Source: Bacteroidales bacterium
GTDB taxonomy: Bacteria; Bacteroidota; Bacteroidia; Bacteroidales; UBA932
Length of the DNA: 64,000 nt
Reading direction: 5' to 3'
NCBI GenBank assembly: GCA_017480345.1
Contig: JAFVAU010000026.1
Location: 41,538 to 105,537 of the forward strand
How positions within the stretch are numbered: position 1 is the stretch's first letter; the number at the start of each line of letters is the position of its first letter. The notes below the pieces were generated by a model that saw nothing but the letters and a program-made list of their open reading frames with translations, did not search any database and was not told the origin of the DNA. The translations under genes were made by a program, and so were the position numbers. Shown piece by piece: positions 1-12,735 of the stretch.

Positions 1-303
1 GTGGCACAGCACGTCCATGATCACGTTCTTGTCATCTGGGCGCATCTTGTCAATCTCGTTGGACTGTGGTTCCACCGACTCAATCTCTTCCGGCAGGAAG
101 TCGTTCAGCAGCATCTTCAAAATCTCCGTGTTTTTCATCACGTGCTTGAAGGCCCAGTCACATCGAAGGTCCATGTACGGATGGTCCAGGATAGATAAAA
201 CCAGTTGTTCCTTCTCTTTCTCGGAGAGATCCCGGTATCGTTCCACCTCATTGACGATGGCTACGAATTTGCGCATCTGCGCAGGAGTCATTTTGATGTT
301 CAT
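1..303 (-). CDS. Rpn/PDDEXK_2 family nuclease, truncated by window edge
   Basis: Reading leftwards from an ATG at 303, 101 codons stay open to the window edge. The protein starts MNIKMTPAQMRKFVAI. It contains the segment DWAFKHVMKNTEILKMLLND (about residues 49-68), then FLPEEIESVEP. This is the usual N-terminal pattern of the PD-(D/E)XK putative transposase family (PDDEXK_2, Rpn), whose members promote RecA-independent recombination in Escherichia coli. The catalytic D and ExQ residues would lie beyond the edge. Its promoter is inside the 87-bp repeat at 345-431, which is identical to the one before the second Rpn gene at 11836. The two proteins themselves are clearly divergent. The family is fairly certain; intactness cannot be judged. 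Confidence 0.75.
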   Translation of the reverse strand, partial: MNIKMTPAQMRKFVAIVNEVERYRDLSEKEKEQLVLSILDHPYMDLRCDWAFKHVMKNTEILKMLLNDFLPEEIESVEPQSNEIDKMRPDDKNVIMDVLCH

Positions 304-344: not shown

Positions 345-431
345 CAAACATAGAACAAGGACTCCGGAAAACCTACAATCGTAAAAAAAGTTGTGTTGTT
401 TTACATGCTTTTTGTGTGTTTCTTACGATTT
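345..431. repeat. 87-bp inverted repeat, left copy (Rpn promoter module)
   Basis: This 87-bp stretch is the exact reverse complement of 11706-11792. Its outer edge is CAAACATA, the minus-strand -7 box TATGTTTG, so it carries the promoter of the leftward Rpn gene. Inside it, ATCGTAA (378-384) and TTACGAT (423-429) form an imperfect palindrome about 52 bp wide. Two related words, TTGTGTTGTTTTAC and TTTGTGTGTTTCTTAC, lie in tandem between them. Identity stops abruptly at both ends. It could be a mobile-element end, a recombination site or a shared regulatory module. Confidence 0.9.
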
Positions 432-478
432 TAAGCCCCTGGAACATCATCGTATCACAACTACAAAAAAGGAAGAAC

Positions 479-1105
479 ATGAATTACGCCTACATCCGCG
501 TGAGTACGGAAATGCAATCTTACGAGGGCCAGCGCTACGAGATAGAGCAATGGAGCCGCCGGCAAGGCCGGGAAATAGGCCGATGGGTACAGGAGAAGGT
601 CTCCGGCACCCAAAAGCTGGAGAAGCGCACGCTGGGAAAGCTGCTGCGCCGGATGAAACCCGGAGACACGCTGGTATGCACGGAACTCTCCCGCCTGGGG
701 AGAAACATGATGATGGTGATGTCCATCCTGAACACCTGCTCCCAGAAAGAGCTCCACCTGTATTCCATCAAGGACAACTTCGAGCTCTCGGACAGCCTCA
801 ACGCCAAGATTATCGCCTTCGCCTTCTCCCTGGCGGCGGAGATTGAGCGCAACCTTATCTCCCAACGCACGCGCGAGGCGCTGGCCGCCAAGAAGCAGGC
901 GGGCGTCAAACTGGGAAGACCAACGGGACCATCGGCCCAACGTCTTTTATTTGAACAGAGAAAGGCCGATATCCTCCGCCTCCGTGCCCAGGGGATGACC
1001 ATCGGCCGGCTGGCCCGCCGCCTTCACATCCACCCCAACACCCTTTCGAGGTATCTGAATGAATTCAAGAATATTGGTTTTGAAGGGCCTGAATCTCCTC
1101 TTTGA
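479..1105 (+). CDS. Mpi-like serine recombinase (DNA invertase)
   Basis: A 208-residue small serine recombinase. The N-terminal resolvase domain starts MNYAYIRVSTEMQSYEGQR with the nucleophile Ser9 in the YIRVS motif. It continues with SGTQKLEKRTLGKLL, ELSRLGRN and the AEIERNLISQRTREAL segment that leads into the E helix. A C-terminal helix-turn-helix follows (about residues 160-200, GMTIGRLARRLHIHPNTLSRYL). The pattern resembles the Bacteroides master promoter invertase Mpi, which inverts several promoters. An upstream in-frame extension exists, but the ATG at 479 begins exactly at the conserved N-terminus. It lies 48 bp inside the left 87-bp repeat, upstream of a SusC/SusD locus. That suggests, but does not show, that it inverts local DNA. 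Confidence 0.88.
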   Translation: MNYAYIRVSTEMQSYEGQRYEIEQWSRRQGREIGRWVQEKVSGTQKLEKRTLGKLLRRMKPGDTLVCTELSRLGRNMMMVMSILNTCSQKELHLYSIKDNFELSDSLNAKIIAFAFSLAAEIERNLISQRTREALAAKKQAGVKLGRPTGPSAQRLLFEQRKADILRLRAQGMTIGRLARRLHIHPNTLSRYLNEFKNIGFEGPESPL

Positions 1106-1160
1106 AAAAGGAAGACGGATCAACCAGGCCCACATCCCGGTGAAGGAGATATCCGGAATT

Positions 1161-1190
1161 TTGTAATAAAAAAAATTAGTTATATCTTTG
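1161..1190 (+). promoter_or_regulatory. Bacteroidales-type promoter for a possible small RNA
   Basis: TTG at 1161-1163, a 19-bp spacer, then TATCTTTG at 1183-1190 fits the Bacteroidetes -33/-7 consensus (TTG and TAnnTTTG) exactly. No coding region starts near it. The predicted start, about 1197, coincides with the first base of the AGTCATC stem described next. Confidence 0.6.
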
Positions 1191-1196
1191 CCAGGT

Positions 1197-1280
1197 AGTC
1201 ATCCGGCGGTGACAGCCCTGCCGCCTTAATTGATATCAGGGGGAGCTGTGGTGGTATCAGATGACTCTTTTTCCTTCTGT
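1197..1280 (+). ncRNA. candidate structured small RNA
   Basis: Starting at the predicted transcription start, AGTCATC (1197-1203) can pair with GATGACT (1260-1266), which is followed by CTTTTTCCTT. Nested inside are ACAGC with GCTGT and CCTG with CAGG, or alternatively the hairpin GGCGG with CCGCC. Enclosing stem, internal pairing and T-rich tail right after a consensus promoter fit a short non-coding RNA of about 75-85 nt. It could instead be the leader of the downstream susC transcript. No known RNA family is recognised. Confidence 0.35.
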
Positions 1281-1312
1281 TCTAAAAATTTTCCAGACCA
1301 CTCGTTTTAAAG

Positions 1313-1367
1313 GTTCGGGGCTGCACATCAAGAAATTAGGCATCAATTTCTCTTTGCAGTCCAGAAC
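1313..1367 (+). other. strong hairpin in the susC upstream region
   Basis: GTTCGGGGCTGCA (1313-1325) pairs with TGCAGTCCAGAAC (1355-1367) over 12 of 13 positions, allowing one G-T pair. An inner stem AGAAATT/AATTTCT closes the loop. This is probably part of a transcribed structured RNA or leader. The rest of 1106-1742 is AT-rich with no supported coding region. Confidence 0.35.
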
Positions 1368-1607
1368 TATCGGAGACGGGGTTTTGGAGGAGGAAGAGTA
1401 GTGCCTCTAACCTATTGGTATTCACCTGTTCGCGAAAAGAATACAGAAATATGCAAAGAAATGAAAAAATTTTTTTGCTTTCGATTTGTTAGAAATTTGT
1501 TCGGAATATTCAAAAATTATAATTAACTTGTGCAGGAAAACCTGTTAAAAACTTTTAAAAACTAAAAATTCGTTGTCAAATTACACTTTTAGGCCACTTT
1601 GACGGGC

Positions 1608-1638
1608 TTGCAAATTAAAAATATGTTTTGCATTTTTG
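1608..1638 (+). promoter_or_regulatory. candidate susC promoter
   Basis: TTG at 1608-1610, a 20-bp spacer, then CATTTTTG at 1631-1638, one mismatch from TAnnTTTG, followed by CA. Transcription would start near 1645 and leave a leader of about 100 nt before the susC ATG. No invertible arms of convincing length were found around it. Confidence 0.4.
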
Positions 1639-1742
1639 CAGCCAAGTTTCGTTTATTTTAAACGGACGTTTTGTAGTGTACGGATACCTATAACGACTAT
1701 TTGTATCAGTATCAATATTTATGTTTAACTAATGTCTTGCTT

Positions 1743-4700
1743 ATGAAAAAGTTCAAGATTTTTCTCTCGGCAGTGGCAGTATTGGCAATGTCCCTCACCG
1801 CAGCAGCACAGAACATCGCTGTGACCGGTACGGTGAAGGATGCCGCCGGTGAACCCATCGTGGGCGCCAATGTGGTGCTCCAGGGGTCTTCCACCACCTA
1901 CACCCTGACCGATTTCAATGGAGCTTACAAAATCAGCGTTCCGCGTAACGGAAACCTGGAAGTAAGCTGCATGGGTTACCAGAGCGTCGTCGTAGCCGTG
2001 AACGGCAAAAACACGCTGAACATCGTCCTTGAGGACGACTCCCAACTGCTGGACGAGACCATCGTGGTGGCCTTCGGTACCGCTACCAAGGAATCCTTTA
2101 CCGGATCGGCCAAGGTGGTGAAGGCCGAAACCCTCGAAAAGTCCCAGGTATCCAACGTCACCCGCGCCATCGAAGGTCATGTGGCCGGCGTGCAGATGAC
2201 CACCTCCTCCGGTACCCTGGGTTCCAACCCGTCCATCATCATCCGTGGTATCAGCTCCATCTCTGCCGGAAGCGCCCCTCTATATGTGATTGACGGCATT
2301 CCGTACAGCGGAGACATGAACAACATCAACCCGGCCGATATCGAGAGCCTCACCGTTCTGAAGGATGCCGCCTCCAACGCCCTGTACGGTTCCCGTGGTG
2401 CCAACGGTGTTATCATGATCACCACCAAGAAGGCAAAGGCAGGCGAGGCCGTTGTGAACGTGGACGCCAAGTGGGGTCTGAATACCAAGGCCCTGCAGGA
2501 CTACGACTACATCCGCAATCCCGCCGTTTACTATGAGACCTACTACTCCTCCCTGTATTGGTATTACATGAATCAGGGCATGAGCAACTCAGAGGCTCAT
2601 CTTCGCGCCGCCACCATCACCCCCGGCACCATCGCCAGCGGCGGTCTGGGTTACAATGTGTACACCCTTCCGGAAGGTGAACTCCTGATTGGTTCCAACG
2701 GCAAGCTGAACCCCAACGCCACCCTGGGCCGCAAGGTCACTTATGGCGGACAGGAATACCTCCTCACGCCCGACAACTGGGTGGATGAGGCTTATCGCCA
2801 ATCTCTCCGTCAGGAATACAACGTGAGCGTATCCGGCACCTCCGGCCGCGCCTCCTTCCTGGCCTCCTTCGGCTACCTGAACAACAAGGGTATCGTCCAG
2901 TCCAACGACATGCGCCGCTACACCGCCCGTTTGAAGGCCGATTATCAGGCAAAGCCCTGGCTCAAAGTGGGTGCCAACATGTCCTACACCAACTTCCTGT
3001 GGAACAACTCCAACAGCGACGAAGGCTCCGCCGGTTCCACCGGTAACATCTTCGGCACCGCTACCATGATGGCCCCTATCTATCCGCTGTATATCCGCGA
3101 CGGAGAAGGCAACATCATGAAGGACCAGTGGGGTCACATCATGTACGACTATGGTGACGGCGCCAACGGCGGCCAGAACCGTCCTACTTCCCCCAACTCC
3201 AACGCCCTCAGCTCCGCCATGCTGGACGTGAACCGTTCCGAAGGCAATGCCTTCACCGGCACCGGCTTTGCCGAGGTCCGCTTCCTGAAAGACTTCACCT
3301 TCACCTTCAACGCCGGTGTAGGTTTGGACGAAACCCGCAGCCAGGACATGAACAACATGTACTATGGCCAGTTCGCCCCCAACGGCGGTACCCTCTCCGT
3401 TGGTCACTCCCGTTACTTCTACTACAACCTGCAGCAGATTCTCAACTACAACAAGACCATTGCCGAGGATCACAACATTTCGGCCATGATTGGTCATGAG
3501 AACTATGTGACCACCTCCAAGAGCCTGTCCGGTTACAAGACCCGCCTGTTCTCTCCGGAGAACCTGGAACTGAACGGCGCCGTCATCGACGGCCAGAATG
3601 CCGCCTCTTCCATGAGCACCTACAACACGGAAGGTTACTTCGGCCGTGTCCAGTACGACTATAAGAACACCGTTTTCGTGAGCGCTTCCTATCGTCGTGA
3701 CGCCTCTTCCCGCTTCCACCCGAACCACCGCTGGGGTAACTTCTGGTCGGCCGGTGCCGCCTGGATCATCTCCAAGGAACCCTGGTTCAACGCTTCCTGG
3801 ATTGACATGCTCAAACTGAAGGCCTCCATCGGCTCCCAGGGTAATGACGGTATCGGCAACTACCGTTACACGGATACCTATTCCCTCTCCAACAACGACG
3901 GACAGCTGGCCATCAGCTTCGCCAACAAGGGTAAGGAAGACATCTCCTGGGAAACCAACACCAACTTCAATACCGGTATCGAGTTCGAACTGCTCAACTC
4001 CCGCATCTCCGGTGGTGTGGAATACTTCTACCGCAAGACCTCCGACATGCTCTTCTGGTTCACCGTTCCCGCCTCCCTGGGTTACAGCGGCTACTACGAC
4101 AATATCGGCGACATGCGCAACCAGGGCGTTGAGTTCAACTTGGACTTCGCCGTTATCCGTAACCGCGACTTCCAGTGGAACATCAACCTGAACGGTACGC
4201 ACTACCGCAACAAGATTATCCGTCTCCCGGACGAGCGCAAGACCCGCACCGTAGAAGGTTATGAGGGTTATGCCAGCGGCAACAAGTTCGTGGGTGAAGG
4301 ACTCCCTCTGAACACCTTCCTCATGGCCAAGTATGCCGGCATCGACCACGAAGACGGTCTCCCCATGTGGTACATGGACCTGAAGGAAGACGCCAACGAT
4401 CCCGACAAGGTGACCGGACAGACCACCACCAAGAAGTACTCCGACGCCACCCAGTATCTGTGCTCCAACACCACGCCTGACATCTATGGCGGTTTTGGAA
4501 CAGACCTGGCCTACAAGGGCCTGGACTTCTCCGTCCAGTTCACCTACAACATCGGCGGCCGCACCTATGATTCCGGTTATGCCAGCTTGATGGCCAACCC
4601 GGAGGGAACGCCCGGCCATTCCATCCACCAGGATATCCTGAATGCATGGTCCCCGACCAACACCACCTCCGACATTCCCCGTTTCGTTTACAAGGACACC

Positions 4701-4964
4701 AACATTACGGCGGCCTCCGACCGCTTCCTGGTGCCTGCCAGCTACCTCAACATCCAGAATGCACAGATTGGTTACACCTTCCCCCAGAAGTGGACCAAGA
4801 AGATTGGTGTAAGCCGTCTACGTCTGTACGCTACCTGCGACAACGTGTGGTACTGGTCTTTCAGAAAGGGTCTTGACCCTCGTCAGAGTTTCACCGGATC
4901 CACCAACAACGCCAGCAACTCGCCTGTGCGCACCATTTCCGGTGGTATTAACATCACATTCTAA
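1743..4964 (+). CDS. SusC/RagA-type TonB-dependent outer-membrane transporter
   Basis: A 1073-residue protein with a signal peptide (MKKFKIFLSAVAVLAMSLTAAAQ). A carboxypeptidase-like beta-sandwich follows (about residues 24-105: VTGTVKDAAGEPIVGANV). The plug domain contains SIIIRGISSISAGSAPLYVIDG and LKDAASNALYGSRGANGVI. A 22-strand barrel ends in GGINITF. This is the classic SusC layout: it imports an oligomeric substrate across the outer membrane using TonB energy. The ATG at 1743 was chosen because it begins the signal peptide; the upstream extension adds only untypical residues. It forms an operon with the SusD gene 17 bp downstream, which has a strong purine-rich GAGGAGG ribosome site. 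The downstream protease suggests peptide rather than glycan import. Confidence 0.96.
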   Translation: MKKFKIFLSAVAVLAMSLTAAAQNIAVTGTVKDAAGEPIVGANVVLQGSSTTYTLTDFNGAYKISVPRNGNLEVSCMGYQSVVVAVNGKNTLNIVLEDDSQLLDETIVVAFGTATKESFTGSAKVVKAETLEKSQVSNVTRAIEGHVAGVQMTTSSGTLGSNPSIIIRGISSISAGSAPLYVIDGIPYSGDMNNINPADIESLTVLKDAASNALYGSRGANGVIMITTKKAKAGEAVVNVDAKWGLNTKALQDYDYIRNPAVYYETYYSSLYWYYMNQGMSNSEAHLRAATITPGTIASGGLGYNVYTLPEGELLIGSNGKLNPNATLGRKVTYGGQEYLLTPDNWVDEAYRQSLRQEYNVSVSGTSGRASFLASFGYLNNKGIVQSNDMRRYTARLKADYQAKPWLKVGANMSYTNFLWNNSNSDEGSAGSTGNIFGTATMMAPIYPLYIRDGEGNIMKDQWGHIMYDYGDGANGGQNRPTSPNSNALSSAMLDVNRSEGNAFTGTGFAEVRFLKDFTFTFNAGVGLDETRSQDMNNMYYGQFAPNGGTLSVGHSRYFYYNLQQILNYNKTIAEDHNISAMIGHENYVTTSKSLSGYKTRLFSPENLELNGAVIDGQNAASSMSTYNTEGYFGRVQYDYKNTVFVSASYRRDASSRFHPNHRWGNFWSAGAAWIISKEPWFNASWIDMLKLKASIGSQGNDGIGNYRYTDTYSLSNNDGQLAISFANKGKEDISWETNTNFNTGIEFELLNSRISGGVEYFYRKTSDMLFWFTVPASLGYSGYYDNIGDMRNQGVEFNLDFAVIRNRDFQWNINLNGTHYRNKIIRLPDERKTRTVEGYEGYASGNKFVGEGLPLNTFLMAKYAGIDHEDGLPMWYMDLKEDANDPDKVTGQTTTKKYSDATQYLCSNTTPDIYGGFGTDLAYKGLDFSVQFTYNIGGRTYDSGYASLMANPEGTPGHSIHQDILNAWSPTNTTSDIPRFVYKDTNITAASDRFLVPASYLNIQNAQIGYTFPQKWTKKIGVSRLRLYATCDNVWYWSFRKGLDPRQSFTGSTNNASNSPVRTISGGINITF

Positions 4965-4981
4965 AGAGGAGGACAGCTATT

Positions 4982-6646
4982 ATGAAAAATATTGCAATCA
5001 AAACCGTCAGCGTCCTTTCCGCTCTTCTGGTTCTTGCAACCGGATGTATCAAGGAAACCTTCCCGCAGGGTTCCACCCAGACTGCCGCACAGGTAGCCAA
5101 GAGTGACGGTGCCCTGGATGCCATGATCAACGCCATTCCCGTGAGCATGATGGGAACCAATGAACTGGGTTATTTCTCCAATTACGGTGTTCACTGGGAT
5201 TACGGCATCGGCGCCATTCACATGGCCACCGAGTTTATGCTGGAAGACATGGCCACGCTGGGCGACAACCCTTACTATAACCGTTACTACGCCTGGGCCT
5301 ATAACCAGAGCCAGGGAGACCGATATATCTATTGCGCCTATTTCTGGGATGCCTACTATACCTGGATCAAGGCCGCCAACGACATTATCAACGTGGTGAA
5401 TCCCGAAGATATGAACGACACGGCCAAGAAGTATCTGGGACAGGCCCTAGCCTACCGTGCCAGCTTCTACCTGGATCTGGCCCGTCTGTTCGAACCCCTC
5501 GAACCTGGAACCAGCTATTCCGGCTATGACATTTCCAAGGTGAAAGGCCTTACCGTTCCCATCGTGGACGAGAACACCACCGAAGAACTGGGCAAGAACA
5601 ACCCCCGCGTTTCCCACGACAAGATGTATGAGTTCATCCTGTCCGACCTGGACCGCGCCGCCGAATACCTCAAAGACGTGAAGACGGACTATTCCCATCC
5701 TTCCATCAACCTGGTGAACGGCCTGTATGCCCGTGCCTATCTTGAGATGGGTGCCGCAGGTACTGCAGGTGCCTATGAAAAGGCGGCACAGTACGCCCAG
5801 AAGGTGATTGACGAAAGTGGAAAGACTCCGCTCACCCAGGCCCAATGGGAAGACCCCAAAACGGGCTTCAACAGCGGTTCCTCCAACAATTCCTGGATTT
5901 GGGGCCTCACCCTTTCCACGGAGAACCAGGGTAACATCATCACTTGGGCTGCCCACATCTGCAGCGAAGGTGCCTGGGGTTATGCTCCGCTTTCCCAGAT
6001 TGGTATCAACAAAGCCACCTATGAGAGAATCCCGGACACCGACTTCCGCAAACACTCCTGGCTGGATCCGGGCCGTACCAACTATTACAGCTACAAGTTC
6101 GCCTGCGGTGACGATTCTTATCTGACCGCAACGGGTGCCTACAAGGGCAACCCCGTCCCCAAGGATCTGGTGAACATCAAGTTCCGCCCGGCCCAGGGAG
6201 AAATCTCCGACTATGCGGTAGGTAACTGCACGGACCAGGTTCTCATGCGTATAGAGGAAATGTACTTCATTGAGGCCGAAGCTCTGGCTCAGACCAACGT
6301 GGCCGCTGCCAAGACCGTTTTGGAAAGCCTGGTGAAGACCCGCAACCCTCAGTACAGCTGCACCGCCAACAGCAAGGAAGACTTTCTGGAAGAGCTCCTT
6401 TTCCAGAAGCGTGTAGAGTTCTGGGGTGAGGGTATCCTCTTCTATGACTACAAGCGTCTGGGCGCCGGTATCACCCGTGGATACAAGGGCACCAACCATG
6501 CAGCCGTTTACTCTTACAACAGCGTTGGCCGTTCCCCTCAGTGGAATATCGTGATTACCCGTGGTGAGCACCAGGCCAATACCGGCATCACCGCAGAGAC
6601 CAACAATCCCGATCCTTCCGACCTCCTTCCTCTGTGGTCTGAATAA
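4982..6646 (+). CDS. SusD/RagB-type surface substrate-binding lipoprotein
   Basis: A 554-residue lipoprotein with the signal LVLATGC and Cys21 as lipidation site, directly after its SusC. The body is rich in paired helices of the SusD TPR-like fold (YFWDAYYTWIKAANDIINVV, KKYLGQALAYRASFYLDLARLFEP). The late segment MRIEEMYFIEAEALAQTN is the usual SusD C-terminal repeat. SusD proteins form a lid over the SusC barrel and bind the substrate at the cell surface. An unusually good GAGGAGG site lies 10-12 bases before the ATG, a feature many Bacteroidales genes lack. Which ligand it binds cannot be read from the sequence. Confidence 0.95.
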   Translation: MKNIAIKTVSVLSALLVLATGCIKETFPQGSTQTAAQVAKSDGALDAMINAIPVSMMGTNELGYFSNYGVHWDYGIGAIHMATEFMLEDMATLGDNPYYNRYYAWAYNQSQGDRYIYCAYFWDAYYTWIKAANDIINVVNPEDMNDTAKKYLGQALAYRASFYLDLARLFEPLEPGTSYSGYDISKVKGLTVPIVDENTTEELGKNNPRVSHDKMYEFILSDLDRAAEYLKDVKTDYSHPSINLVNGLYARAYLEMGAAGTAGAYEKAAQYAQKVIDESGKTPLTQAQWEDPKTGFNSGSSNNSWIWGLTLSTENQGNIITWAAHICSEGAWGYAPLSQIGINKATYERIPDTDFRKHSWLDPGRTNYYSYKFACGDDSYLTATGAYKGNPVPKDLVNIKFRPAQGEISDYAVGNCTDQVLMRIEEMYFIEAEALAQTNVAAAKTVLESLVKTRNPQYSCTANSKEDFLEELLFQKRVEFWGEGILFYDYKRLGAGITRGYKGTNHAAVYSYNSVGRSPQWNIVITRGEHQANTGITAETNNPDPSDLLPLWSE

Positions 6647-6664
6647 GTTAAGAACCAGATTGTT

Positions 6665-9070
6665 ATGAAAAAGATATTATCCTATATTTTTATGTTTGGC
6701 GCCGTGGCTGCTCTTACCCTGAGCAGCTGCGCCAAAAAGGAAGTCTATCAGCCCGGTGAGCCCGATTCGGAAACTTGCTTCGGCGTGTACTTCCCTTCCC
6801 AGGAGGCTTCCGGTAGCCACACTTTTGATCCGGAAATGGAACGGACACTCACAGTCACCGTTGCCCGTAATCAGGAAAAGCCTTATATCGATAAAGCTAT
6901 CACGGTTCCCTATGTGATAAAATCCGATACGGACGGCATCTTCCAGGCCGGTAACATTACCTTTGAAGCTGGTCAGGCAGAAACGGCCTTCGAAATCAGT
7001 TTTGATAATGCTGAGATGGGTACCAATTATGCCGCCACCCTGGAAATTACAGATACGGAATATGTTTCCAAGTATTCCAACAAGGCTACGTTCTTGAATT
7101 TTGACGTGTTGGTTGTTGCCTGGCAGTATATGCTGAATCCCAAGACTGGGGAGCCGGCTGTTTTCACTATCAATTCCCGTTGGGATAATAAGCTTGGTCC
7201 CATTCACGCTACTTTGAAGTACTATGAGATCGGGGGAGTGAAGACCGGCATATTCACCAGCATTGACAAGGATAAAGACGGTAACCTTGAAGGATTCTGG
7301 CACAGCGTTCCTTCCGTTACGTTGAATATCCGTTGGTATAGTGAAAAAAACAACAATGGATATGAGTTCGTAGAACTTCCTAAACAGTATTTCGGTTATG
7401 ACTATAATGGTGGTAACTGGCTTAAAGTTCCTCTAGAAGAGGCTGCGACACCTATTTATGCGTATGACTATGCCTGGTATTGGGTAGAGCGAGGCTATAA
7501 CTTCGGAGACGATGGCATGGGAGCTAACTGGCTGGAAGAAGCCAAGGCTACCGGTCAGATGGATGGTAATTATCCTGTCGGTTACTATGACGGTAATGGC
7601 GGATTCTTCTTCAATATCTACTTCTTCATGCCCGGATTGGGTGGATGGTCTCCGGATAACTATGGGACAGTGGCTATTGCAGATGGTTTCACCCGCGTAG
7701 ACTTCAGCCTCGCTTTGGAGACCGATTATCCCGCCGATGGTGTAACTCCAGTCTATGTGGAAGCCGGCGCTGATGTAGCCAGCATTAAGTATGCCATCTA
7801 CCCCGGCGAACTCAAGGAAGATGAAGTAAAAGATAAGGTGAACGCCATTGCCGCCGGTACGGAGGAAGCAACGGAATTCTCCGAATTTGAGCTTGACGAA
7901 GAAAGCGGAAAGAACTTCGCCACTCTGGGTCTTTCCCCCGAAACGACCGGCACTTACACCATCGCTGTCGTAGGCTTCGACGCCGCCGGAGCTGCACAGG
8001 TTGCCGAGAGCCTCGTTTTCAACTTCATCACCGCCGATGACCAGGATGACCACGCTGTTCAAGTTCAGGTTGGTACGGAGGATGTCCCCGCCCGCTACGG
8101 TGACTATCCCACCAACTCTTCTTTCGCTTTCTATATAGTGGGAAAGAACATTCAGGAAGCCCACATCAACATTTATGCGACGGAAACATTCAATGAAAAT
8201 CAGGAGGCAATTCTGGCCGAAATGAAGGCTGCCGAAACAGGAAGCGGTGTATCTGTTGCATCGGCAAGCGTCTTGGCCGAAATCAACGCTCCCGGTGGAT
8301 TCTATACCTACACAACCGGCCTGAAGGCTCTCACCAGCTACACGGTTGTTGTCTGGGCTACCAATGGTGAAATGGAAACCTGGCAGACGGCAGAATATAC
8401 CACGGACGGTCTTCCCAATGTACTGCTGACAAAGGGTGATTACTATTATACCGGTTGGTTCTTGAAGATTTCGGGCAGTACCGAAGAATCTATTGTTGAT
8501 TCGGGCCTTGAACTTTATCAGAACCCTAACATTGATAATACTTATGTTATCACTCATTGGGGCTATGATGTAGACTTTATCTTCACGGTAGATCCCAAGA
8601 CAAACGTCATTGACTGGGATTACTTCTACTCCGGTTATTCTACTGGCGGTATTGATTTGCTTGTTTTCAATAGTAAAAACATCTGGTCGGCATCATACCT
8701 CGAACAGCATCCGGAACTTGCAAAAGATAGCTACTATGACCCGGAAACCGGCATTTATCATTTCTATGCCGCCTACTATGCTCCTGGTTATGGCGTTCAG
8801 ACCTGCACTTGGGAAACTTTCGTTCCTAATAAAGAGAGCGGAGAAGAACCCACCGGAATTAAGTTCAACAGTTCCTCCGTATCGTTGTCACAGGCTACGA
8901 TGTCCGGCGTGAAGGATATTCAACTTCCAACCCGCGAATTCAAAGCCTTACCTCGCGATCCCCAGCCGGTGAAAGCCAACGTTACCGTAAGCTACACCCG
9001 CAAGGCAAAGGAAAGCGGCAGAAACAACATGGTTGTCACCCGTGATTCCGACCAGCGGTTCTTTGAATAG
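6665..9070 (+). CDS. large surface lipoprotein of the SusCD locus
   Basis: An 801-residue lipoprotein (signal LTLSSC, Cys21) in the slot normally used by SusE/SusF or surface glycan-binding proteins. An N-terminal beta-sandwich (about residues 35-130: FQAGNITFEAGQAETAFEISFD) resembles the Calx-beta-like and BACON-like repeats of Bacteroidetes surface proteins. The middle is rich in aromatic residues and acidic loops. Two fibronectin-like segments follow (about 330-430 and 450-580). No catalytic motif is visible. Its codon use is more AT-rich than susC and susD, hinting at separate ancestry. It probably helps to capture substrate at the cell surface; the function is inferred from position. Confidence 0.7.
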   Translation: MKKILSYIFMFGAVAALTLSSCAKKEVYQPGEPDSETCFGVYFPSQEASGSHTFDPEMERTLTVTVARNQEKPYIDKAITVPYVIKSDTDGIFQAGNITFEAGQAETAFEISFDNAEMGTNYAATLEITDTEYVSKYSNKATFLNFDVLVVAWQYMLNPKTGEPAVFTINSRWDNKLGPIHATLKYYEIGGVKTGIFTSIDKDKDGNLEGFWHSVPSVTLNIRWYSEKNNNGYEFVELPKQYFGYDYNGGNWLKVPLEEAATPIYAYDYAWYWVERGYNFGDDGMGANWLEEAKATGQMDGNYPVGYYDGNGGFFFNIYFFMPGLGGWSPDNYGTVAIADGFTRVDFSLALETDYPADGVTPVYVEAGADVASIKYAIYPGELKEDEVKDKVNAIAAGTEEATEFSEFELDEESGKNFATLGLSPETTGTYTIAVVGFDAAGAAQVAESLVFNFITADDQDDHAVQVQVGTEDVPARYGDYPTNSSFAFYIVGKNIQEAHINIYATETFNENQEAILAEMKAAETGSGVSVASASVLAEINAPGGFYTYTTGLKALTSYTVVVWATNGEMETWQTAEYTTDGLPNVLLTKGDYYYTGWFLKISGSTEESIVDSGLELYQNPNIDNTYVITHWGYDVDFIFTVDPKTNVIDWDYFYSGYSTGGIDLLVFNSKNIWSASYLEQHPELAKDSYYDPETGIYHFYAAYYAPGYGVQTCTWETFVPNKESGEEPTGIKFNSSSVSLSQATMSGVKDIQLPTREFKALPRDPQPVKANVTVSYTRKAKESGRNNMVVTRDSDQRFFE

Positions 9071-9093
9071 AAACGTTTAATTCTGAGACAATT

Positions 9094-9124
9094 GAGACCA
9101 GGCGTAAATGCGCCTGGCCTCTTT
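9094..9124 (+). terminator. intrinsic terminator or attenuator after the SusCD operon
   Basis: GAG, CCAGGCG, a short loop TAAATG, CGCCTGG and CTC form a strong hairpin followed by TTTG. It lies between the large lipoprotein gene and the protease gene, so the protease is either transcribed separately or reached only by read-through. Confidence 0.7.
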
Positions 9125-9142
9125 GTCGTTAAAAACATTGAT

Positions 9143-11179
9143 ATGAACAAGTATCCTTTACTCTTGATTCCGGCATTGCTGCTAAGCGCCCTCTCCTGTC
9201 AGCAGGAGAAGGTGGAAACAGACCGGCCGGCAACAGACGATGTATCGGCCAAAATCCTTACCAAAGGAGATGCGGTGGTGGCGGAGGATGCCTTTTTGGT
9301 GAAATTTGCGAAGGCCCCCACTGCCGATGACATTCAGCAGTTTGAAAAGGAGACGGGCACCAGTCTGCAAAAGACCTTCCGTTCTACTCCGGGCCGGGAG
9401 GAGCTGGAAAAGGCTCACGGACTGGACCGCTGGTATGATGCCACCCTCTGCGAAGGGGACGTGCTGGACCGGATTGTCCTGAAGGCGGCTTCCGTCCCCG
9501 AGGTGCAGGTGGTGGAATATCTTTCCGAGGTTGTTAAAACGTCGGACGGTGAGGTTTATCCTCTATCGGCTCCAACCAAGGGAACGGCAGACACTTTCAA
9601 CGACCCTTATCTCTACCTCCAATGGCATTATAAGAACACGGCCGATCCCATGGTGTCTCCCACAGCCAAGGCCGGGGCCGATGTCAATGTAACCCCGGTG
9701 TGGAACAATCTCACCTGCGGAGACCCCGCCATCATTGTAGCCGTCATTGACGAAGGCGTCAAATACTCGCACCCGGACCTCAAGGACAACATGTGGGTGA
9801 ATGCAAAGGAAATTCCCGGAAACGGAATCGATGATGACAATAACGGGTATATTGACGATATTTACGGCTATAACTTCTTTAACAATAGCCCTAACATTAG
9901 CTGGAACGTTGAGGGAGATTCCGGCCATGGAACCCACTGCGCCGGTACCATTGCCGCCGTTAACAACAACGGAATGGGCGTTGCCGGCATTGCCGGCGGC
10001 TCCGGCAAGGGAGACGGTTGCCGTATCATGGGCCTGCAGATATTCTCCGGCAAAAGCGGTGCATCGGCGAACCGCATTGCCCAGGCTATCAAATATGCGG
10101 CCGACAACGGTGCCTCCATCATTTCCTGCTCTTTCGGCTCAACCCTTTCTTACGGTTCCGACAATGCCTATTACAAAGCCGGTGGAGGCGTGGAAATAGA
10201 CGCCATCCACTACTTTGAGGATTGCAAGAACAATCCTGTTCTGAATGGGAACATTGCCATTTTCGCTGCCAGCAACGACGCAAAGAACTATGCTTTCTAT
10301 CCCGGTGCCTGGCACGATATCATCAGCGTATCGGCCCTGGGCCCCGACGGACTGCCGGCCTACTATACCAATTATGGGCCCGGCTGCAATATCTGCGCCC
10401 CCGGCGGAGAAGCTTATCATATTGTGAACCGTTGGAATTCCATGGTGTTATCCACCATCCCTTCCGAAGTAGGCGGAAACGGAATTAACGGTGAATATGG
10501 ACAGACCGGAATGGACTACGGCTACATGCAGGGAACGTCCATGGCCTGCCCGCACGTGAGCGGCGTGGTGGCCCTGGCCCTGTCTTATGCCAAGCAACTT
10601 GGAAAAACCTTTGACCGCGACGAGTTCAAACGCATGATTCTTTCGTCCGTAAACGACATAGACCAGCTTATTGCCAACACCAGCGAGAAAACCTATGCTT
10701 ATGGCCGTGGAGCCCTGAAAATGGCCCCCTATTACCATCAGATGGGTACCGGCAGCATCGACGCCTGGCGCCTCATGATGAAAATTGAAGGAACGCCCAC
10801 CTCTACGCTCCAGCTGGGCAAGAAACAGTGGGTAGACCTTACTTCCGTCTTTGGAACGGCTTCCGTAAGTCTCACCTACCTAAATGTGGAAGTATCGGAG
10901 CAGACCGTCAAGGATCTGGGGCTCCAGACCATTGCGGGAACCTCGCAAAAGGCCTATCCCTGCGTTCCCGAAGGGGACTGCTATGCATATATTCAGTTCG
11001 GCCGTTTGTACATTCACCCCACAAAAATAGGATCCGGCAAAATTGCCATTACGGCCGTAGGGGGCGGATCCCATGTAGGTGGAGGCGACAACCCTCCGGG
11101 CGGCATGGAACTGGAACAGGATCTTTCTATCATTGTCCGTGATACGGACGGAGGCAACGGAACAGGAGGATGGTTATGA
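9143..11179 (+). CDS. subtilisin-like (S8) lipoprotein protease
   Basis: A 678-residue protein starting MNKYPLLLIPALLLSALSC, a lipoprotein signal. Residues about 30-130 resemble an inhibitory propeptide (AFLVKFAKAPTADDIQQFEK). The S8 domain carries Asp203 in AVIDEGVKYSHPDL, His262 in GDSGHGTHCAGTI and Ser466 in GTSMACPHVSG, so the triad is complete. The C-terminal region (about 540-670) contains a beta domain typical of Bacteroidetes surface proteases. Start 9143 was chosen because it begins the signal peptide; the earlier ATG lies within the terminator hairpin. Its stop overlaps the next gene's start as ATGATG. With SusC/SusD beside it, it probably digests protein outside the cell to feed the transporter. 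Confidence 0.93.
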   Translation: MNKYPLLLIPALLLSALSCQQEKVETDRPATDDVSAKILTKGDAVVAEDAFLVKFAKAPTADDIQQFEKETGTSLQKTFRSTPGREELEKAHGLDRWYDATLCEGDVLDRIVLKAASVPEVQVVEYLSEVVKTSDGEVYPLSAPTKGTADTFNDPYLYLQWHYKNTADPMVSPTAKAGADVNVTPVWNNLTCGDPAIIVAVIDEGVKYSHPDLKDNMWVNAKEIPGNGIDDDNNGYIDDIYGYNFFNNSPNISWNVEGDSGHGTHCAGTIAAVNNNGMGVAGIAGGSGKGDGCRIMGLQIFSGKSGASANRIAQAIKYAADNGASIISCSFGSTLSYGSDNAYYKAGGGVEIDAIHYFEDCKNNPVLNGNIAIFAASNDAKNYAFYPGAWHDIISVSALGPDGLPAYYTNYGPGCNICAPGGEAYHIVNRWNSMVLSTIPSEVGGNGINGEYGQTGMDYGYMQGTSMACPHVSGVVALALSYAKQLGKTFDRDEFKRMILSSVNDIDQLIANTSEKTYAYGRGALKMAPYYHQMGTGSIDAWRLMMKIEGTPTSTLQLGKKQWVDLTSVFGTASVSLTYLNVEVSEQTVKDLGLQTIAGTSQKAYPCVPEGDCYAYIQFGRLYIHPTKIGSGKIAITAVGGGSHVGGGDNPPGGMELEQDLSIIVRDTDGGNGTGGWL

Positions 11180-11634
11180 TGAAAAAAATATTTGCATTGG
11201 CAGCTATGCTGCTGGTTTTGGCCGCCTGTGGCGGAAAAGACAATCCGGACACACCCAACCCCAATCCGGGCGGTGGAAGCGGTTCCACCACCACCAAGGT
11301 GGATGTCACCGGCTCCTGGGAGTTGAGCGGCGTTGAGACAAAAGTCAGCGTGGGTTCTGTGAACGTATCGGTATATATCAGCTTCGCTTCCGACGGAAGC
11401 TTCACCCTCTACCAGAAGATAGGAGAAGGCCGATATACCCAGTTCACCGGAACCTACACCCTTTCGTCCGACAACAAACTCAGCGGTAAATATAGCAACA
11501 ACACTGCCTGGGGCCCTTACACGGCCGCCATGGCCAGCGGAAAGCTCACGCTCACATCGGCCGGCGGAAAGGAAGTGGATACCTATTCAAAGATATCCTC
11601 CATTCCCACCTCTGTTACGCAAAACATCTACTAA
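11176..11634 (+). CDS. small lipoprotein, lipocalin-like beta domain
   Basis: A lipoprotein of about 152 residues (signal AMLLVLAAC) followed by a Pro/Gly/Ser-rich linker and a single all-beta domain (VTGSWELSGVETKV, FASDGSFTLYQK, GTYTLSSDNKLSGKY). The motifs resemble the short lipocalin-like domains common in Bacteroidetes lipoproteins. It starts with ATG at 11176 or 11179, overlapping the protease stop, so the two are translationally coupled. It may assist the protease or shield the cell; no specific role can be read. A good terminator follows. Confidence 0.75.
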   Translation: MMKKIFALAAMLLVLAACGGKDNPDTPNPNPGGGSGSTTTKVDVTGSWELSGVETKVSVGSVNVSVYISFASDGSFTLYQKIGEGRYTQFTGTYTLSSDNKLSGKYSNNTAWGPYTAAMASGKLTLTSAGGKEVDTYSKISSIPTSVTQNIY

Positions 11635-11672
11635 AAAATTAGCGGCCGAGAAATTCGGTCGCTAATTTTTTT
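11633..11672 (+). terminator. intrinsic terminator
   Basis: AAAAATTAGCG, CCGA, loop GAAAT, TCGG and CGCTAATTTTTTT form a long hairpin with a T run just after the small lipoprotein stop codon. The A-rich left arm means it could work in both directions. Confidence 0.88.
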
Positions 11673-11679
11673 ATAGGCA

Positions 11680-11709
11680 CTTCCTACTCGCTTAAGCAGG
11701 CTTTCAAAT
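11680..11709. repeat. decayed duplicate of the frdB 3' end
   Basis: These 30 bases match the true frdB 3' end (12784-12813) at 27 positions in the same orientation. Read on the minus strand they still encode LKACLSE and a stop, against LKARFSE and a stop in frdB. With the real frdB end, this forms a direct repeat enclosing the Rpn gene and its promoter repeat (spacing 1104 bp). Confidence 0.8.
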
Positions 11710-11792
11710 CGTAAGAAACACACAAAAAGCATGTAAAACAACACAACTTTTTTTACGATTGTAGGTTTTCCGGAGTCCTTGTTCTATGTTTG
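11706..11792. repeat. 87-bp inverted repeat, right copy (Rpn promoter module)
   Basis: Exact reverse complement of 345-431. Its outer end is the plus-strand -7 box TATGTTTG (11785-11792), which serves the Rpn gene starting at 11836. It abuts the decayed frdB duplicate by a four-base overlap, so the repeat's inner edge is probably the edge of the inserted unit. Confidence 0.9.
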
Positions 11793-11835: not shown

Positions 11836-12699
11836 ATGCAAGAAAACGAATTAAAGATTGGCAGGTATGCCAATGTGTTGATGGACCGCTGGTTCAAGAG
11901 GACGTTTGGTTGGGCCCCGGCCCGGCGGTTGATGCAGCTCTTTCTGCAGGAAATGATTCCTGAACGGAAGATTACAAAGTTGAGTTTTGGCCCACAGGAG
12001 TATGTGAATCCCATTGAGGAGGGAAAGGATATCAGGCTGGACGTGCACTGTACGGATGAGACAGGAGCGCATTTCATAGTAGAAATGCAGTTCACGGAAC
12101 AGAAGACCTTCTATGAACGGGCGTTGTTTAACTCTACTTTTGTGATTCAGGAGCAGATTCCGGTTGGCAACACGGATTGGACCTTGCCGCAAATCTATTT
12201 TATCGGCGTGGTCAATTTCCCGTTGCACGAAGGGTCTGACAGGGTGTTGTACCGATACAGGCTAAAGGAACTTTCCACGGGTGAGGATATGCCCATTCCA
12301 GTGGAGTATATCTTCCTGGAGGTCCCCAATTGCCGGAAGGCAATGACCAGCGAGGCGTCGTTGCTGGATAACTTCTGCTACGCGATGAGGAAGATGCCGG
12401 AGATGGAGGAGCGCCCAAAAGAATTGAAAGGAGAAATCTTTGACTTGTTGTTTAATTCTGCGGAAATTAATAAATTTGCCCCGAAGGAACGTTCCGAATA
12501 CATCAAGCAAATGATTACCATCAGAGACATTGTCAACCAAATGACCACCGCAGAAGAAAAGGGCGAAACCAAAGGAAGAGCTAACGCTATGCGAAAGGTA
12601 GCCCTGAGGATGCTTGCGGCCGGTGAGGAGCCCTCTCGCGTGTCAGAGTTTACCGGATTAAGCCAGGAGGAAGTTTTGGCCCTTCAGACAAATAAATAA
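11836..12699 (+). CDS. Rpn/PDDEXK_2 family recombination-promoting nuclease
   Basis: A 287-residue full-length member of the PDDEXK_2 family. The N-terminus has YANVLMDRWFKRTFGWAPARR. The nuclease core is visible as DIRLDVHCTDETGAHFIVEMQF, giving the D and ExQ catalytic residues at about 73-88, followed by ERALFNST. The C-terminal half ends in a small helical DNA-binding-like motif (AGEEPSRVSEFTGLSQEEVLAL). Such proteins cut DNA and stimulate RecA-independent recombination in the E. coli homologues. The start lies 43 bases after the -7 box in the 87-bp repeat. The gene sits between the frdB terminator and a decayed copy of the frdB 3' end, which indicates insertion there. Confidence 0.88.
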   Translation: MQENELKIGRYANVLMDRWFKRTFGWAPARRLMQLFLQEMIPERKITKLSFGPQEYVNPIEEGKDIRLDVHCTDETGAHFIVEMQFTEQKTFYERALFNSTFVIQEQIPVGNTDWTLPQIYFIGVVNFPLHEGSDRVLYRYRLKELSTGEDMPIPVEYIFLEVPNCRKAMTSEASLLDNFCYAMRKMPEMEERPKELKGEIFDLLFNSAEINKFAPKERSEYIKQMITIRDIVNQMTTAEEKGETKGRANAMRKVALRMLAAGEEPSRVSEFTGLSQEEVLALQTNK

Positions 12700-12735
12700 A
12701 ATTTTACAAAAAAAAATAATTTTCTAAAAATAAAA

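Follow-up and report, generated by a model that had tools for sequence, protein, structure and literature searches.

Contig JAFVAU010000026.1 of a Bacteroidales genome (assembly GCA_017480345.1; 2.22 Mb in 46 contigs, completeness of 91%; labelled G000 here) includes a 64,000-nt stretch, called the window below, in which a perfect 87-bp inverted repeat encloses the gene for an Mpi-like serine DNA invertase and a SusC/SusD operon. The first-pass annotation proposed that the repeats may bound an invertible block of 11.4 kb or may be the ends of two elements carrying Rpn-type nuclease genes. Comparison within this genome and with related ones instead identifies the repeat as a promoter module and not as the border of an invertible block, and it suggests that the DNA switch probably present at the locus has its borders elsewhere. 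Short AAACG-NN-CGTTT sequences, one in each leader of a divergent pair of SusC genes, are the likely sites of crossover. We give this joint explanation, a promoter module plus an Mpi-like switch at -802..1671, a probability of about 0.78. Coordinates are those of the window, and negative ones lie to its left on the same contig. The elements central to the argument are as follows.

345..431, minus strand: left module copy, its promoter directed outward to Rpn_L, with the -7-like box at 345-352; 87/87 bases identical to the right copy
11706..11792, plus strand: right module copy, its promoter directed outward to Rpn_R, with the -7-like box at 11785-11792
479..1105, plus strand: gene for the Mpi-like serine DNA invertase, 208 amino acids (PF00239, E = 1.3e-33)
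1608..1638, plus strand: promoter-like pair TTGC...TTTG, directly inside the right candidate crossover site, towards SusC2
1660..1671, plus strand: right candidate crossover site, AAACG-GA-CGTTT; inverted partner at -802..-791, left of the window
1..303, extending left of the window, minus strand: Rpn_L, a PDDEXK_2 nuclease gene, 326 amino acids in total (PF12784, 137.9 bits for the whole gene)
11836..12699, plus strand: Rpn_R, a PDDEXK_2 nuclease gene (PF12784, E = 1.5e-40; TIGR01784 above cut-off)
12579..12700, plus strand: 3' end of Rpn_R, 87% identical over 122 bp to that of Rpn_L in inverted order; holds an internal ATG

The 87-bp repeat and the genes behind it

Reverse-complement comparison bore out the inverted identity of the two copies at 87 of 87 bases, as well as its sharp ends; the pair stretches to 90 nt at 99% identity, and a perfect repeat of this length 11 kb apart is far beyond chance. 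The annotation of each repeat as an outward promoter for an Rpn gene also held, as both copies end in an outward -7-like box (TATGTTTG) of the Bacteroidetes type. A search with the 87-mer located 11 module places in the source genome, including the two window copies in full and nine further ones over 47 to 87 bases. What these copies share in alignment is a 54-bp core, which reads AATCGTAAGAAACACACAAAAAGCATGTAAAACAACACAACTTTTTTTACGATT in the window and has an 8-bp inverted repeat at its ends; the -7-like box, TATGTTTG or TATCTTGC in most copies, follows about 24 bp past the core. We read the module as a Bacteroidetes-type promoter joined to this operator-like core of about 54 bp.

A possible gene start lies 3 to 79 nt downstream of the module, in the same orientation, at all 11 places. 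The genes with Pfam support are dprA (PF02481), radC (PF04002), hicA (PF07927), higB (PF09907), and the two Rpn genes (PF12784). A Y1_Tnp/RAYT-like gene matches PF01797 (NF047646 below cut-off), and two others are RAYT-like by eye, with a weak Y1_Tnp match (E = 0.054) in one and none in the other. The remaining genes encode a lipoprotein without a Pfam match and a protein with a weak helix-hairpin-helix (HHH) match (E = 0.06 to 0.08). The start codons of dprA, radC, the HHH-like gene, and the three RAYT-like genes fall 3 to 7 nt after the -7-like box, and therefore their transcripts may be leaderless or nearly so.

The module recurs across related genomes. A first profile, built from ten copies of the source genome, gave 14 places there at E < 0.001 and pointed to 6 of 41 genomes. 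A pattern scan of the genome collection returned 46 loci, of which 40 were accepted and six (L113, L114, L123, L132, L133, and L137) were dropped as chance. All but one of the accepted loci lie in records titled Bacteroidales or Bacteroidia (39/40), the other being in a Fibrobacter-labelled bin, and the records with related modules are mostly metagenome-assembled genomes of rumen or gut Bacteroidales (RUG13987, RUG13332, UBA3764, and UBA2716). A second profile was built from 45 modules (alignment A2; the ten own copies plus 35 of the 40 accepted loci) and found 3 to 15 places per genome (E <= 0.01) in 13 genomes picked as module carriers. In a census of 400 same-genus genomes, with stricter filters and the best ten candidates scored per genome, it gave at least one match at E <= 0.001 in 73, the source genome included; this scoring caps the counts per genome, and some of the 73 have a single weak match.

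The genes behind the module are largely the same from genome to genome. Sixty further stretches were chosen for their profile match, and our own matrix found 53 modules in 49 of them and none in 11. Most of these modules (49/53) stand before an open reading frame (ORF) similar to one of 15 reference proteins: RAYT-like proteins A, B, and C (13), Rpn_L (7), the lipoprotein (7), Rpn_R (6), radC (6), dprA (4), the HHH-like protein (3), HicA (2), and HigB (1). The other four comprise one at a contig end and three before genes for an ORF6N-type protein, an unknown protein, and a YefM-type antitoxin (by eye). A radC match was present in 57 of 61 genomes, from which 30 loci were fetched and 29 upstream regions inspected; because the module precedes radC at 5 of the 30 loci (four by eye, plus G003 via L053), we regard it as lineage-restricted within the genus.

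Several details of module variation were recorded alongside. In G005 the terminal repeat of the core is altered on both sides, with AATCGGTT or AATCGGTA versus AACCGATT, and mixed pairs also occur. The spacer of the G003 modules (L048, L053, and L056) holds TTATCCACA, in L048 TTATCCACC, a DnaA-box-like word; the arms flanking it vary between copies and mostly remain complementary. At the equivalent place before the HHH-like gene, L061 and L111 have TTATCAACA. Half-sites resembling GAAACA recur about 21 bp apart, and a LytTR-type regulator was considered as a candidate for that reason. The locus in the Fibrobacter-labelled bin (L128, CAMHDS010000134.1) belongs to module contigs of 3.5 to 3.9 kb, for which contamination is likely. 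There, as in L104 and L122, the module precedes an HRDC-domain gene (PF00570, E = 7.5e-19 for the L104 protein), a possible additional member of the group.

Could the module be a small mobile element, REPIN- or MITE-like, that was spread by RAYT-like proteins and landed before genes by chance? RAYT-like genes themselves carry it, and its core has terminal inverted repeats. However, the source genome has all 11 copies in the same orientation and placing before gene starts, dprA, radC, and other orthologues retain the module across species, and a mobile repeat would be expected elsewhere too. We consider such an origin very unlikely. The fixed place and orientation at orthologous promoters rule against a REPIN or MITE, and a RAYT/REPIN system was rejected as well, since the matches in the source genome are few and at promoters and one RAYT-like gene fits NF047646 only below cut-off.

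The invertase and its candidate crossover sites

The invertase has serine recombinase catalytic and C-terminal helix-turn-helix domains (PF00239 and PF13384), both above cut-off. Its PDB matches are the DNA invertases 4m6f and 3uj3, and its best NCBIfam match is the Mpi model NF009949 (251.4 bits; cut-off, 272). Relatives (E <= 1e-30) occur in 55 of 200 same-genus genomes, several of them in the same interval between sdhAB and hflX/mnmG (gene names by eye). At the locus studied here, the invertase stands between two divergent SusC operons, one starting with SusC2 and the other, a second SusC/SusD-type operon (SusC1), left of Rpn_L, outside the window, and pointing away. Three more relatives (43 to 49% identity) lie elsewhere in the source genome (G000:C24:27817, C15:120729, and C28:122629), and one of these has a TAG codon in frame.

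In all 12 long loci examined, the invertase is spanned by an inverted repeat, which ranges from strong to weak (weakest E, 0.04 at the G171 leader). Within these repeats, in the SusC leaders, we found AAACG-NN-CGTTT. Only two AAACG..CGTTT strings are present in 83,538 contiguous bases of the contig, at -802..-791 and 1660..1671; an inverted-repeat search limited to 1050-1800 is blind to this switch, as the partner site lies left of the window. We located site pairs with a score of our own from which the 2-bp core was excluded, and a pair was recognized in 19 of 22 invertase loci (18 top-ranked, with G072 second-ranked), the three loci without one being G020 (at a contig edge), G083, and G090. 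Site pairs also occur at invertase loci in which the scan found no module, for example, G162, G164, G072, and G003.

Strand exchange by serine recombinases demands matching 2-bp cores, and the two cores were indeed equal in each of the 19 pairs, which among them have six dinucleotides (GA, AC, TC, GT, CC, and CT) between near-constant half-sites. Random re-pairing of the arms (200,000 times) gave equal cores in 4.3 pairs on average and in 13 at most. The excess of within-genome over between-genome matching was largest at the two core positions (0.73 and 0.60) and did not exceed 0.40 elsewhere among the positions examined. Just inside the site, the invertase-side arm has a promoter-like TTGC...TTTG pair in 11 of 12 loci, G164 being the exception, whereas none of the 12 opposite arms has one; this pattern was written after the sequences had been seen, and shuffled sequence yields it in 8.5%.

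Orientation could be compared in eight genomes with comparable flank (G216 and G217 with one flank only), leaving out G155, G171, and G180 (no flank) and G181 (locus on the other side of sdhAB). The invertase points towards sdhB in G000, G072, and G216 and towards mnmG in G053, G162, G164, G003, and G217, a 3-to-5 division that a two-state switch caught in either state would simply explain. We propose that the Mpi-like invertase would flip the segment -802..1671 between its two AAACG-NN-CGTTT sites, so that the promoter inside the segment would read into one SusC/SusD operon or the other. In the present assembly it faces SusC2, SusD2, the protein at 6665..9070, the protease, and the lipocalin-like protein; after a flip it would face the SusC1 operon. 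Active flipping, with one operon expressed at a time, is what this arrangement suggests. Rpn_L and its module lie inside the segment in G000 and G216, and Rpn_R does so in G053 and G217, so a toxin gene and its regulon promoter would be carried along as the segment flips. A module scan of the other nine invertase loci gave none, with only a 125-residue Rpn_L-like match in G162.

Some observations weigh against such a switch. The invertase scores under the NCBIfam cut-off for Mpi. The site pairs come from our own score, which ranked the G072 pair second and recognized none at G020, G083, or G090. Arms from the same genome are more alike outside the core too, and relatedness adds to the core match. 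The two orientations are known from different species, by sequence comparison. Operon contents have switched sides in G053 and G003, and G216 has fragments of the right border near the left border; larger rearrangements have thus occurred as well and may explain part of the orientation differences.

The swapped operons of G053 and G003, together with long stretches of inverted similarity flanking the invertase (1.3 kb at 70% in G162 and 795 bp at 77% in G155), would fit another account: over evolutionary time, nothing but ordinary homologous recombination reshuffled the SusC operons, the invertase works at other places, and the paired sites reflect similarity that the leaders inherited. This account is unlikely in our view, as the matching excess peaks at the two core bases with near-constant half-sites around them and the conserved promoter keeps to the invertase side. 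Still less probable is an 11.4-kb block of invertase and SusC/SusD operon with the 87-bp repeats as its arms, inverted either through the invertase or through homologous recombination. In favor of it are the perfect identity and inverted order of the repeats and the finding that in G053 and G217 the invertase adjoins the module of Rpn_R and not that of Rpn_L, as module-to-module exchange would give. Nevertheless, the module serves many unrelated genes as a promoter, an outcome that the first-pass annotation had itself named as counting against its reading, module-free loci have switch sites, and an operon and a second module sit between Rpn_R and sdhB in G053. RUG13987, the nearest relative with the junction, has the orientation of the window there, and no genome was seen with the simple product of module-to-module inversion. 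The first-pass annotation therefore stands in that the locus probably holds invertible DNA; its proposed borders do not, the candidate sites being shorter and one of them lying outside the window. The notion of Rpn-carrying elements also falls, because the same module fronts many non-Rpn genes, among them dprA, radC, hicA, higB, and RAYT-like genes. With the module before many genes and switch sites shared by module-free loci, we rejected the repeats as ends of either kind.

In gene content the block was as first annotated, with a serine recombinase, SusC, SusD, a protein without a Pfam match, an S8 protease, and a lipocalin-like protein. Beyond the invertase, its genes are as follows.

1743..4964, plus strand: SusC2, a TonB-dependent SusC-like receptor (PF07715 and PF13715); first gene of the operon facing the switch promoter in the present assembly
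4982..6646, plus strand: SusD2 (PF14322 and PF07980)
6665..9070, plus strand: large protein, lipoprotein-like by eye; no Pfam match
9143..11179, plus strand: subtilase-type (S8) protease, start codon uncertain (PF00082, E = 4.3e-42; PF16361)
11170..11634, plus strand: lipocalin-like protein (PF13648)

A strong, terminator-like hairpin is present at 11628-11676, 3' of the lipocalin gene and directly upstream of the right module. The block had also been said to hold a candidate RNA; an Rfam scan of the window, which covers it, returned no matches at the gathering threshold.

Rpn genes and a putative DNA-processing regulon

The two Rpn proteins are divergent, as the first-pass annotation had stated (30% identity over 266 aligned residues), yet their genes share the identical promoter module and an inverted 3' end of 122 bp that is 87% identical and holds an internal ATG. 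We take the perfect identity of the window copies to mean that promoter and tail were recently exchanged, or duplicated, between the two Rpn loci. The copies would be inverted only because the two Rpn genes that they serve point in opposite directions. Module copies fronting toxin genes are often alike within one genome. In UBA3764 (G217), those before hicA, Rpn_L, and Rpn_R agree at 81 to 83 of 84 positions and two other copies agree at 81 of 85, with 71 to 74 of 84 to 85 between the groups; pairs within other genomes agree at 80/85 (G053), 78/84 (G216), and 63/84 (G391). A PDB search with Rpn_R gave no match at 0.001. One copy looks decayed, an intact module in G053 (G053:C9:30988-31446) being followed only by a 152-amino-acid Rpn_R ORF. 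The source genome has two further Rpn genes near contig ends (G000:C13:213-932 and C32:26548-27267; 89.5 bits each), neither among the listed module places.

In other phyla, dprA and radC are late competence genes. The module looks like the mark of a regulon for DNA processing, perhaps of the competence type, which drives toxin genes as well, and its genes may be co-regulated. In the proposed regulon, a putative factor probably binds the 54-bp operator-like core and would jointly control dprA, radC, the HHH-like and RAYT-like genes, the lipoprotein gene, and the toxin genes (Rpn, HicA, and HigB). What links these genes is shared sequence alone, which counts against the regulon. In G000, the divergent promoter of a second ssb gene (PF00436) contains weak matches to the module (E = 1.1e-5 and 0.0098), and boxes like CATCGTAA recur upstream of several orthologues. 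At comparable similarity, this second ssb was not found in the module-bearing genomes G005 and G216, which gave only a distant match of the main ssb type.

We give a competence-type program slightly better than even odds. Its main rival, which we rate somewhat below even, is a real regulon that answers DNA damage or phage attack, with the toxins as defense and RadC, DprA, and the RAYT-like proteins as repair or defense helpers. Rpn, HicA, and HigB are all toxin-type genes, and according to an excerpt of PMC10327210, Rpn acts against phages in Escherichia coli. A further point for this rival is comEC, which is present in 6 of 6 genomes and was also matched in 10 of 14 control genomes; in the six fetched loci, no module words were found near it beyond two unrelated-looking matches. 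More tentative still, and in our estimate rather doubtful, is the combination of a competence-type regulon (54-bp operator; DprA, RadC, and changing toxins), a toxin carried into the flipping segment, and 2-bp cores that act as lineage-specific bar codes against cross-reaction among the Mpi-like invertases of one cell. If true, DNA processing, toxin expression, and surface variation would be physically linked in rumen and gut Bacteroidales of this genus.

Relation to known systems

An invertase need not act on a long perfect inverted repeat that surrounds it. The module supplies an operator, together with lists of genes and species, for seeking the regulator, and transformation, in abundant and mostly uncultured gut bacteria. 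Naturally occurring variants of a single invertase site illustrate that the two cores have to match, a rule for which they offer a ready test series. Coyne 2003 is said to be the reference for Mpi-controlled invertible promoters of Bacteroides fragilis, and Nakayama-Imaohji 2009 reportedly that for phase-variable SusC/SusD proteins of Bacteroides. Literature searches covering open-access papers met neither the two-operon layout with natural core variants nor a toxin-bearing DNA-processing regulon, nor was a Bacteroidales competence regulon found in them. A competence-type promoter with a toxin gene is known from another phylum and resembles the present case, in which toxin genes stand behind the module; here the operator is another one, several unrelated toxin families are involved, and the module system is known from sequence.

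As excerpts of PMC10327210 describe it for E. coli, the tails of Rpn genes act as intragenic antitoxins (RpnS). The genes described here share with that system PDDEXK_2 proteins and a C-terminal tail with an internal ATG, in our case a putative counterpart. The paralogues here, however, differ in body and share promoter and tail, whereas the E. coli tails are variable.

Mpi-type switches and inversion near SusC genes are already known, as far as the available portions of PMC10939037 and PMC5903667 go. The B. fragilis Mpi switches have in common with the putative one here the invertase family (by best NCBIfam match, below its cut-off) and a promoter inside the segment, and the half-sites AAACG and CGTTT fit the Mpi repeat, quoted as ARACGTTCGTN in a part of PMC8375218; the 2-bp core differs. 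Unlike those switches, the present segment contains the invertase gene itself and would serve a divergent pair of SusC/SusD operons, and its core dinucleotide varies among species, with TT in 0 of 19 pairs. Phase-variable SusC/SusD proteins of Bacteroides, as covered by an excerpt of PMC10939037, are likewise outer-membrane proteins under DNA inversion, putatively so here, where a local serine invertase stands between two divergent operons in one conserved chromosomal interval. With the Hin-type flagellar switch of Salmonella, in which the invertase gene lies inside the segment (PMC5903667, in part), the putative switch would share an invertase gene and an outward promoter within one flipping segment, but it has a full nutrient-transport operon on both sides and belongs to another branch of recombinases with other sites.
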